DNA of 59,992 bases, from assembly GCF_000472665.1 (NCBI RefSeq), contig NZ_AXAC01000031.1:1-59992 (forward strand), read 5' to 3'. The stretch is from Acetobacterium malicum subsp. dehalogenans DSM 11527. Its GTDB lineage: Bacteria; Bacillota; Clostridia; Eubacteriales; Eubacteriaceae. Position numbers and translations under genes: made by a program. The notes below the pieces were generated by a model. The model was not told the DNA's origin and made no database searches. It worked only from the letters and a program-made list of their open reading frames with translations. Of this stretch, positions 23,649-28,960 are shown piece after piece (position 1 is the stretch's first letter; each line of letters opens with the position of its first letter).

Positions 23649-23715
23649 TTCATAATTTATGACTTTTTCAGATTAGCTTTTTATTTTGATAAAATTATGA
23701 ATAAACAACTGCAGC

Positions 23716-23911
23716 AGTACCGACAATTGTTATATCATGTTGTACGCATCGGAGCGGACACGGCAGAGCCTGTCCGATTCTGCGCGCAGGCAACGAGCCA
23801 ATCACAAGCTTGCTTGTAGTTGGCGACTGCCCGCGACCAATGCGAAAGGAGCAAAGCGGATTTCGCATGGCGCGGAGAACAACAGATTAACAATTGGTCG
23901 GTACGGTAGTT
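23716..23911 (+). repeat. Palindromic interspersed repeat with terminal inverted repeats, long copy
   Basis: This 196-base intergenic element has terminal inverted repeats: TACCGACAATTGTTA (23718-23732) against TAACAATTGGTCGGTA (23888-23903), matching except for one inserted base. Inside are strong hairpins, for example 23797-23824 (13-base arms with two mismatches and a TT loop) and 23840-23868 (ATGCGAAA/TTTCGCAT). A shorter copy in the opposite direction lies at 35001-35106; it is nearly identical at both ends and lacks about 90 internal bases. It carries no gene. It behaves like a MITE or REP-like mobile repeat. The rest of the 369-base gap (23649-24017) holds nothing else recognised. Confidence 0.85.
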
Positions 23912-24017
23912 TACAGAAAACCTGACCAGGCAATCATTTTGCCTGGTTTTTGTGTTATAATAAGGTATTCGATTAATCACTTTAGAAATCATTTAATTAA
24001 ATAAAAGGAAAAAAATA

Positions 24018-25832
24018 ATGGCAGATAATAATAAAAGTGGCATTCGCCAAAGCTATATAAAAGAACTGGATGACCTGGTTGGTTATGAAATGGAAAACCA
24101 GGTTCTTTTGGATGAAACTATATTAGAGATCATGAAACGATTGACCTTGGCAACGAAGCGGGAAGTGCTGATCTGTACCAACGATAAAAACCGGGTTCAG
24201 TGGGTGAATATCGGCGATGCCGCCACCGTCAACATCGGCAATGCGGAAATGCTGTATCACGTCAAGGCCCTGAATAAATACCGGGTGATCCATACCCATC
24301 CCGGCGGCAATCCGCGGTTATCTGACGAGGATTTTTCAGCGGCCAAAAAACAGAACTTGCAGTGTATTATTGCCATTGGCGTCGATGAAAAAATACCGAC
24401 CAGCTTTAGTATCGGGGTGCCAGTAGTTGAAGAAGCAACGATGGAATACGGTCAGGCACTGTTTAAAACCCTCAAGGAATTGAATAAGTTTCCGCTGGAG
24501 CATTACATTTTATTGGCAGACCGGTTTATTAAAGATGATCCCAACAATAAGTTTGATTCTGAAGACGAAGAAGAACGGGCCTTACTGATTGGTCTGGATC
24601 TGCCCGGGAATAAGGGCGTCGAGCTGGTTGACTCCATGGAAGAATTGCGGCAACTGGTAAAAACCGCCGGGGGAACGGTGCTGGAACAGGTTTGTCAGGC
24701 CAGAAGCCAGATTGACACCACCTTTTATGTGGGCAAGGGCAAGCTGCAGGAACTGATCAAGGTGATTCAGAATAACGACATCAATCTGATTGTCGCCAAT
24801 GACGAACTCAATTCCCGGCAGATTGCCAACATCGAAGCGGCCACCGGCACCAAAACGGTGGATCGAACCACCATTATTCTGGATATTTTTGCCCGGCACG
24901 CCAAAACCAAAGAAGGCAAGCTGCAGGTCGAATTGGCCCAGCAGAAATACCGGATGAGTCATTTGAAGGGGCTGGGGATTGTGATGTCCCGGACCGGCGG
25001 CGGCATCGGTACCCGGGGTCCCGGTGAAAAGAAACTGGAAACTGATCGGCGTCATATCCGCAAACAGTTAGAAGAACTGGAAGCCCGAATTGAACGGATC
25101 AATAAAAGCAATCAGCTCAACGCCGTGCAGCGGGAAAAAAACAAAGTTAAAACGGTCGGCTTAATTGGCTATACCAACTCCGGCAAAAGCACGCTGTTCA
25201 ACCGGCTTACCCAAAGTGAGGTGGTGACCAAAGATGGTCTCTTTATCACCCTGGATTCGACCCTGCGAAAGGTAGATCCAGAACATGGGGATTATCTAGT
25301 CTCGGATACGGTCGGTTTTATCGATAAGCTGCCCCATGATTTAATTAAGGCCTTCAAGACCACCCTGATGGAAGTGGAAACAGCGGATCTGCTGCTCCAT
25401 GTGGTGGATGTGTCCAACCATAATTACGAAGCTCAAATCACTGTGGTTAATCAGGTGCTGGCGGATATCGGAGCAGGTAACAAAAAAGTGATGATGATCT
25501 ATAATAAAATCGACAAGCTGACCCCGGAAGACCGGGATGCTTTGGTCCTTAAAAATCAGCAGGCCATCGATGAGCTGACACTGTATATTTCCGCTAAAGA
25601 AGGGCTGGGCGTTGATACTCTGTTTGAAACCGTTGATCGGGTACTGATCGGAGAAAAACGGCAAATCAAGCTGCTAATCCCCTATGATGATAATAAATCG
25701 CTGGCACTTTTGCATGAAATGAAGGTGGTTCAGGAAATTGATTACCAGGCCGAAGGTAATCTGGTGACCATTGAGATGACCGATGATTTTCCGATCCATC
25801 TTTTTGAGAAGTATCAGGTGACAGAGGTATAA
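24018..25832 (+). CDS. hflX: GTPase HflX with N-terminal JAMM/RadC-like domain
   Basis: This 604-residue protein is long compared with about 420 for typical HflX. The C-terminal part (~residues 190-604) is standard HflX: glycine-rich GTRGPGEKKLE, P-loop GYTNSGKST at residue 384, then DTVGFI and NKID. HflX binds and splits stalled ribosomes. The N-terminal ~170 residues contain V-I-H92-T-H94-P-G-G-N-P-R-L-S102-D-E-D105, which fits the JAMM metal-site pattern HxHx7SxxD, together with an upstream Glu in TKREVLICTND. The layout resembles RadC. A metal site is inferred from the motif. It is followed after 2 bases by yigZ. Confidence 0.93.
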   Translation: MADNNKSGIRQSYIKELDDLVGYEMENQVLLDETILEIMKRLTLATKREVLICTNDKNRVQWVNIGDAATVNIGNAEMLYHVKALNKYRVIHTHPGGNPRLSDEDFSAAKKQNLQCIIAIGVDEKIPTSFSIGVPVVEEATMEYGQALFKTLKELNKFPLEHYILLADRFIKDDPNNKFDSEDEEERALLIGLDLPGNKGVELVDSMEELRQLVKTAGGTVLEQVCQARSQIDTTFYVGKGKLQELIKVIQNNDINLIVANDELNSRQIANIEAATGTKTVDRTTIILDIFARHAKTKEGKLQVELAQQKYRMSHLKGLGIVMSRTGGGIGTRGPGEKKLETDRRHIRKQLEELEARIERINKSNQLNAVQREKNKVKTVGLIGYTNSGKSTLFNRLTQSEVVTKDGLFITLDSTLRKVDPEHGDYLVSDTVGFIDKLPHDLIKAFKTTLMEVETADLLLHVVDVSNHNYEAQITVVNQVLADIGAGNKKVMMIYNKIDKLTPEDRDALVLKNQQAIDELTLYISAKEGLGVDTLFETVDRVLIGEKRQIKLLIPYDDNKSLALLHEMKVVQEIDYQAEGNLVTIEMTDDFPIHLFEKYQVTEV

Positions 25833-25834
25833 GT

Positions 25835-26467
25835 GTGGTAGATTATAAAACGGTATTAATTCCGGATGAAACCGAGCTCGAAATCAAGAAGTCCCGCTTT
25901 ATCAATCTCGTTTTTCATATTGAAACCGAGGCAGAAGCAGAAACGATTCTGGCCGAAATTCGCAAAAAGCATTATAAAGCCACCCATGTCTGCTGGGCCT
26001 ATCTGCTCAATACCAACCCCCGGCGCCAAAAAGCCAGCGATGACGGTGAACCATCCGGTACCGCTGGTAAACCGATTCTTGAGGTCATCAATCATCGGGA
26101 GCTCAAGGACGTCCTGGTGGTGGTGATTCGCTATTTTGGCGGCATCAAGCTGGGTAGTGGTGGTCTGATCAGGGCCTATGGTGGCGGCGCCAGTGATGTT
26201 CTTAATCATTGTACCGTGATTAAGAAACAGTTTTCCGACCAATTGCAAGTAGTGGTCAGTTACGCCAGCTACGGGGGCCTGAGTAATGGTTTATTGGAAC
26301 GGGACGTGATTCCGGTGAATGAAGATTTTGGCGAAAATGTGACCCTTTCCTTTCAAATCCCGGTGGCCGAGACAAAAGAATTTTTAGCCTGGGTTGAAGA
26401 TAAAACCAATGGAACTGCTCAAATTATTCGTGGTGAACAGGCTTTTGTGGATGTTGTGGAGGCTTAA
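25835..26467 (+). CDS. YigZ/IMPACT family protein
   Basis: This 210-residue protein begins with GTG. The IMPACT (UPF0029) domain has the signature DDGEPSGTAGKPIL, followed by VVVIRYFGGIKLGSGGLIRAYG. A C-terminal DUF1949-like ferredoxin-fold domain is present. Eukaryotic IMPACT acts in translational stress signalling; bacterial YigZ is thought to bind nucleic acid, but its function is not settled. Adjacency to hflX, another ribosome-associated factor, supports a translation-related job. Confidence 0.9.
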   Translation: MVDYKTVLIPDETELEIKKSRFINLVFHIETEAEAETILAEIRKKHYKATHVCWAYLLNTNPRRQKASDDGEPSGTAGKPILEVINHRELKDVLVVVIRYFGGIKLGSGGLIRAYGGGASDVLNHCTVIKKQFSDQLQVVVSYASYGGLSNGLLERDVIPVNEDFGENVTLSFQIPVAETKEFLAWVEDKTNGTAQIIRGEQAFVDVVEA

Positions 26468-28758: not shown

Positions 28759-28763
28759 TAGAT

Positions 28764-28940
28764 TATCCCAAAGTGTTCGTTTTTACTTTATTTTTGAACC
28801 TACATCAATACTCAGGGAGTCTGATTGTTCGTTGCCAGATGTTAGGCCTCATTATATCAGTGGAAAACAGAAGTCAAAGACAAGACACCCACCTAGCTTT
28901 CGCTAGGGCGTCAAAAATGGAGTACGACACATTGGGATAG
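28764..28940 (+). ncRNA. ssrS: 6S RNA (RNA polymerase regulator)
   Basis: This stretch is about 177 nucleotides long with no frame. The 5' end (TATCCCAAAGTGTTCG) pairs with the 3' end (CGACACATTGGGATA) in a long terminal helix. The conserved-looking GTGTTCG and TTGAACCTACAT segments follow in the order seen in Bacillota 6S RNAs. A central region with a local hairpin, CCTAGC-TTTC-GCTAGG (28892-28907), completes the expected bubble-and-arms shape. 6S RNA mimics an open promoter and sequesters sigma-A RNA polymerase in stationary phase. The promoter lies immediately upstream and an intrinsic terminator immediately downstream. Identification rests on remembered features and pairing, not a covariance search. 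Confidence 0.8.
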
Positions 28941-28960
28941 CACCTAAGGGTGCTTTTTTT
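28939..28960 (+). terminator. Intrinsic terminator of the 6S RNA gene
   Basis: AGCACC (28939-28944) and GGTGCT (28949-28954) form a short GC-rich stem with a four-base loop, followed by seven Ts. Confidence 0.8.

Follow-up and report, generated by a model that had tools for sequence, protein, structure and literature searches.

The only HflX encoded in the genome of Acetobacterium malicum subsp. dehalogenans DSM 11527 carries, ahead of its GTPase core, an extra N-terminal domain with a complete JAMM metalloprotease motif. The gene lies in the 59,992-nucleotide stretch of DNA that was analysed (contig NZ_AXAC01000031.1; hereafter the window), and its 604-aa reading frame starts at the ATG at 24018. 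We hypothesize that the domain works as a zinc peptidase or isopeptidase delivered by HflX to the ribosomes that HflX splits, where the domain would cut a protein on the 50S subunit; this is the best explanation available to us, and we put it at about even chances. The features are as follows, with the protein sets behind the counts defined below.

24018..25832 (+): hflX with N-terminal JAMM-like domain; ORF of 604 aa, TIGR03156 at 410 bits
24045..24533 (+): predicted JAMM/RadC-like domain, residues 10-172; family alignment, AlphaFold pLDDT 85.7, fold matches, hhalign to RadC
24162..24164 (+): E49, predicted to act as general base on the zinc water; 59/59, in register with the RadC Glu
24291..24299 (+): H92-T-H94, two predicted zinc ligands; 59/59, 134/142 in the census
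24321..24323 (+): S102, predicted stabiliser of the intermediate; 59/59, 79/79 named loci
24330..24332 (+): D105, third predicted zinc ligand; 59/59, 79/79 named loci
24534..24572 (+): linker, residues 173-185, of low model confidence; pLDDT below 50 at 180-187
24573..25829 (+): HflX core, with ND1, helical domain, G domain and C-terminal part; Pfam and PDB matches

The remainder of the protein is an ordinary HflX. TIGR03156 matches residues 187-542 with 410.1 bits against a cut-off of 216.75, and PF13167 (GTP-bdg_N, residues 205-292), PF16360 and PF01926 all score above their Pfam cut-offs, so that the GTPase and HflX domains of the family are present in full. HflX structures in the PDB match only from residue 179 onward, and E. 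coli HflX (426 aa) thus begins where the JAMM-like domain ends. Because the HflX models start only at about residues 187-205, the first ~185 residues are an addition. Over the first ~172 of these, no Pfam or NCBIfam model scored above its cut-off.

The spacing of E49 (within TKREV), H92-T-H94-P (His codons at 24291-24293 and 24297-24299), S102 and D105 is exactly that of the JAMM motif EXnH[S/T]HX7SXXD, and these are the residues, under the same numbers, that the preliminary description had singled out. In the motif as given for AfJAMM (EXnHS/THX7SXXD), the His pair and the Asp sit on zinc, the Glu acts on water and the second Ser serves the reaction intermediate (PMC300881). When the first 199 residues were shuffled, the pattern E-x(20-80)-H[STN]HP-x6-S-x2-D appeared in none of 300,000 shuffles, and the shorter HxH-x7-S-x2-D in 55 of 300,000.

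The motif is strongly conserved, and this conservation weighs more than the shuffles. Searched with the window domain, a class sample gave matches in 36 of its 118 genomes and a phylum sample in 35 of its 199 (our own genome in both), and the locus was returned for 59 proteins from the 70 matched genomes. E49, G66, H92, T93, H94, S102 and D105 are invariant in all 59, the window's own protein included. A more sensitive profile (A1) was made from 54 of these proteins, omitting five (L016, L023, L025, L031 and L035) and with the window standing in for L002. It matched 65 of 299 phylum-sample genomes, 54 of them with long matches in ORFs of 522-702 aa and 11 with short ones; the seven short matches that were fetched were all RadC-like proteins. 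In the class sample it matched 99 of 291 genomes, 90 at E 5e-30 or better, and we take the 54 and the 90 as the genomes that carry the domain. Every complete ORF seen joins it to HflX. All 54 phylum and 89 of the 90 class matches, one of them shared, make up a census of 142 carriers; a contig-end fragment (G537) was left out. The full five-residue set is present in 134 of the 142, near relatives among which are not independent, and the other eight each lack two to five of the residues and never just one. A separate set of named loci, the best 80 of 399 relatives, has S102 and D105 in 79 of 79 (L134, with a broken frame, left out); since the fetch patterns held HTHP and the Glu stretch, these loci are independent for S102 and D105 only. 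The five residues are therefore not lost in most long HflX proteins, and the conservation claimed for them survived the survey.

Where the site is damaged, it tends to be damaged thoroughly. Four of the eight exceptions are close relatives from one genus, in which both His are changed and E, S and D are kept; the other four retain one or none of the five residues, and one of these (G290) has a stop codon inside the match. When 14 long HflX ORFs without a profile match were fetched, 13 had no match to the domain, several of them apparently frames left open upstream of the true start, and L169 proved to be a ninth degenerate copy, outside the census of 142. HflX genes with a destroyed site (L141, L142, L145-L148, L149, L226 and L169) belong to several lineages. 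Because eight of the 142 keep the domain with its site destroyed, the domain can in some lineages persist after the site is gone. The sequence pattern fits a metal site that is under selection and is now and then lost whole. Eukaryotic MPN+ and MPN- proteins offer a parallel.

Profile comparisons indicate the family to which the domain should belong. Its scores fall below the cut-offs for Prok-JAB (17.6 bits vs 25, Pfam), RadC PF04002 (15.6 vs 22.1) and TIGR00608 (12.0 vs 133.85); because both RadC models are below cut-off, we file the domain as a relative of RadC and not as RadC itself. Among 79 members, Prok-JAB matches 19 at E ≤0.1 (best 0.00031) and RadC 12 (best 0.0016), both from Pfam, while six other Pfam families match one to five of the 79 (E 0.011-0.096), which counts against this reading. 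The family profile had 18 matches at E ≤1 among PDB sequences, the best being AMSH-LP (E 0.0025). Sixteen of the 18 are AMSH/STAMBP (STAM-binding protein)/Sst2 or Rpn11-like proteases; the other two, chloroplast ribosomal protein S19 (E 0.17 and 0.24), again count against the reading. Aligned with seven RadC proteins in hhalign, the domain family gave 95.8% and 96.5%, with E49, H92, H94, S102 and D105 each in register with a RadC residue, whereas 50 column-shuffled controls gave at most 2.2% and a reversed alignment 0.2%. This comparison is not independent of the census search, since the RadC rows (A5) were found with the A1 profile. Alignment A3 is without L101 and L134, and A4 also without L078 and L080. 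The genome itself has four RadC genes (L259-L262, on contigs 27, 24, 38 and 68), two of them short frames of 170 and 178 aa, and contains no Prok-JAB match above cut-off.

Predicted structures of two members point the same way. AlphaFold models reach a mean pLDDT of 85.7 and pTM of 0.79 for the window domain, where one model stands at 85.7 and the other four of five at only 76-78, and a pLDDT of 82.3 and pTM of 0.77 for the domain of Acetivibrio mesophilus. Foldseek placed RadC 2qlc first for the window domain (E 0.0059), whereas for the A. mesophilus domain PfJAMM1 5ld9 and Cap3 9ild shared the top place (E 0.0052); nothing fell under E 0.001 in either run, and GAF, CodY and other unrelated chains were interspersed. 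VIA-align put PfJAMM1 on top in both cases (window domain, Z 7.3, rmsd 3.5, 112 aligned; A. mesophilus domain, Z 7.7, rmsd 3.1, 108 aligned), although the tool warns that Z below 8 can reflect a common arrangement. All 50 entries listed per run appear to be JAMM/MPN-fold or RadC proteins, although the titles of some (2kks, 9is6, 9eae and the EMC entries) do not say so; VIA-align ran on chains preselected by Foldseek, and absence from these lists excludes no family. The scores are middling, and it is the uniform VIA-align lists together with the sequence evidence that carry the argument for the modelled fold.

In the predicted secondary structure, E49 opens a strand (49-55), H92 and H94 lie in another (88-95), and S102 and D105 are at the start of a helix (103-111). 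The places of E49, H92/H94 and D105 are those of E22 on beta2, H67/H69 on beta4 and D80 on alpha2 in AfJAMM (PMC300881); judged by these places and by the fold matches, the five residues may meet in space in the modelled fold. The domain shares its motif, predicted fold and order of elements with AfJAMM, PfJAMM1, Rpn11 and AMSH. Unlike these JAMM/MPN+ proteases, it has only a putative activity and sits on a ribosome GTPase, with no ubiquitin-like substrate seen nearby. It lines up with RadC (PF04002, TIGR00608) at the Glu, at HxHP-x6-S-x2-D and at a conserved Gly (hhalign 96%), but RadC stands as a protein by itself, has a helical N-terminal part of its own and the motif HNHPSGxPxPS, and is not fused to HflX. 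Judged by fold and site pattern, the first ~172 residues almost certainly make up a domain of JAMM/MPN+ type that belongs to the RadC-like branch. The resemblance could in principle be superficial and hide another fold and role, as identities to the window domain of 22-33% for 52 of the 53 homologues in alignment A1 and the middling structure scores might suggest; sequence, profile and fold evidence jointly oppose this, and we consider it very unlikely. Both the RadC/JAMM-type domain proposed in the preliminary description and its fusion to HflX are thus borne out, with the PDB-profile matches, the RadC alignment and the modelled structures, which align best to JAMM, Rpn11 and RadC, in agreement; the occurrence of an HflX with an extra N-terminal JAMM-motif domain is confirmed. 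The preliminary interpretation is supported in part, since the cleaving or sensing on stressed ribosomes that it suggested is conjectural.

From the fusion, fold and conserved motif found by computation we infer metal binding, catalysis and action on the ribosome. H92, H94 and D105 would bind the zinc, and E49 would activate a water molecule. Because the JAMM site is complete, a zinc peptidase or isopeptidase is the simplest reading, and we consider it probable that the domain is catalytic. Action on the ribosome appears about equally likely. According to a 2025 review (PMC12493154), HflX docks on the large subunit, extends toward the peptidyl-transferase centre and separates the 70S ribosome into its subunits, and the 604-aa protein presumably does so too, as a member of the family. 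The same source describes an N-terminal extension of mycobacterial HflX that contacts uL16 and H38 of the 23S rRNA and stretches as far as the H69-H71 junction; because of these contacts, the N-terminal end of HflX should face the intersubunit side of the 50S. A folded domain at the same end would, by analogy, hang over the exposed 50S intersubunit face.

We propose the following sequence of events. The short and probably flexible linker would tie the domain to a complete HflX, whose core would bring it to stalled or idle ribosomes and then split them. The tethered domain would hydrolyse a bond, peptide or isopeptide, within some protein that is accessible on the 50S intersubunit face; our guess is a nascent chain, a ribosomal protein or a bound factor. 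The broader claim, that there is a class of HflX with a built-in JAMM protease that both splits the stalled ribosome and cuts a protein on the freed 50S, seems to us somewhat less likely than not to hold. The lack of an agreed activity for RadC, the nearest relative by sequence (PMC11981726), counts against our preferred explanation. So do the eight carriers whose site is lost, the absence of a ubiquitin-like substrate or shared neighbour at the clustered loci, the sub-threshold Pfam scores, and the middling fold matches with unrelated chains among them.

Two other functions have to be weighed. The domain might bind metal without cutting, sensing zinc or redox state or docking on rRNA, and so regulate or help HflX. 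The mycobacterial extension assists splitting without catalysis (PMC12493154), and some lineages keep the domain without its site. The loop that precedes the HTH strand is poorly ordered and, in many carriers, basic (n=134; net charge from -2 to +6, median +2; window, +1); it would suit RNA nearby and so fits this idea as well. Nevertheless, the equivalents of E49 and S102 in AfJAMM are catalytic and not ligands (PMC300881), and here they are as conserved as the ligands. We regard a purely non-cutting role as possible but doubtful. A RadC-type domain acting on rRNA, tRNA or DNA instead of protein would agree with RadC being the nearest relative by profile comparison and with the RadC-like domains found on DinG helicases; yet no nuclease fold occurs among the matches, and the DinG review likewise gives metalloproteases, not nucleases, as the relatives of that domain (PMC11981726). 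Such a role is improbable.

The fused form appears to be the regular HflX of the bacteria that have it. HflX is present in 228 of the 299 phylum-sample genomes, including all 54 carriers. Only two genomes of that sample have two HflX copies, and since neither is a carrier, the carriers there have the fused form as their one HflX. About a quarter of the HflX-bearing genomes of the phylum sample (54 of 228) carry the fusion, mostly with the site intact. Its distribution is patchy on a FastTree phylogeny of 196 HflX cores (134 intact, 9 decayed and 53 lacking the domain; of the named loci, only those with numbers divisible by 6). Presence and absence need 14 changes on this tree, of which strongly supported branches force four to five, counted without regard to direction. 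L141, L142, L149 and L169 lie near domain-less HflX, where decay of the site may have preceded loss of the domain.

Outside this phylum, Fusobacterium animalis has a 600-aa HflX with the motif intact. A search of plasmids with the domain returned two records, both from Fusobacterium, one with a length of 2.1 Mb. The whole protein matched 95 plasmid records, two of which cover at least 80% of it, and among the 40 matches listed all but one (Fusobacterium) begin at residue 150 or later; plasmid records are thin evidence on other phyla. A phage search gave no match to the domain at E 1e-5.

Prp is a cysteine protease that trims bL27 in Bacillota. As Prp and our domain would both be ribosome-linked proteases of the same phylum, one might stand in for the other, but Prp occurs in 44 of the 54 carriers, our own genome included, against 230 of 299 genomes overall, so the two are not complementary. 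We reject the replacement of Prp, which has next to no chance of being correct.

JAMM domains, HflX and RadC-like DinG are all known already; the JAMM-HflX fusion is new within the open full text. We found no description of a JAMM, JAB or RadC domain on HflX in the open PMC full text searched. In the portions available, PMC1779556 has no occurrence of HflX, PMC10502375 has only 'jammed', and PMC12493154 has no occurrence of 'jab', though this last mentions N-terminal HflX extensions in several Clostridium spp. without naming a domain. The mycobacterial extension is likewise an extra N-terminal part, but it measures 39-58 residues, and the JAMM motif is not mentioned in the part of that review at hand (PMC12493154). 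RadC-like DinG has a RadC/JAMM-like domain N-terminal to a P-loop NTPase, as here (PMC11981726); unlike HflX it is a DNA helicase and not a ribosome factor. The solved HflX-ribosome structures that matched do so from residue 179 of the 604-aa protein or later and are therefore without the JAMM-like domain. If about a quarter of HflX-bearing genomes have a mostly intact protease-type site on HflX, part of ribosome rescue in bacteria may include a proteolytic step not looked for before; if our explanation is right, a bacterial counterpart of deubiquitinase-type proteases would exist inside ribosome quality control. Such a protease-GTPase would be the only HflX of many Clostridia-type bacteria and would occur in Fusobacterium as well. 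The RadC-like JAMM domains, a group without agreed function, would gain a testable location, the ribosome.

Genes around hflX differ between genomes. When the neighbours of the 80 named loci and the window were clustered, the most widely shared families, besides HflX and ORFs overlapping it, occurred in only 21, 19 and 19 of 81 loci. Spurious ORFs account for many of the clusters, and because contig ends shorten several loci these counts are lower bounds. A dedicated partner gene is rejected on these counts, and neither a co-encoded ubiquitin-like substrate nor a conserved neighbour was seen among the 81 clustered loci. The only family named was the one present in the window, UPF0029/YigZ, which follows hflX on its downstream side at 19 of the 81 loci, window included. 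In the window this IMPACT-type gene (25835-26467, +) begins 3 bases past the hflX stop codon, and a functional link between the two is possible.

Two further elements of the window deserve mention. Directly upstream of hflX lies a dispersed repeat of about 200 bases (23715-23925, +) with 43 matches in its own genome, 38 of which (itself included) are at least 185 bases long at 77-100% identity. Folded as RNA, it takes a multi-armed shape (-93.7 kcal/mol, z -7.0), with no Rfam match at the gathering score. In a genome of the same genus (G090) there are 60 matches, the best of which span just the two ends, and the genomes of five other relatives have none; the element looks like a MITE-like or REP-like family. 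A 6S RNA (28762-28942, +; 66.2 bits vs a gathering score of 46.4) lies between radA and ruvA-like genes.
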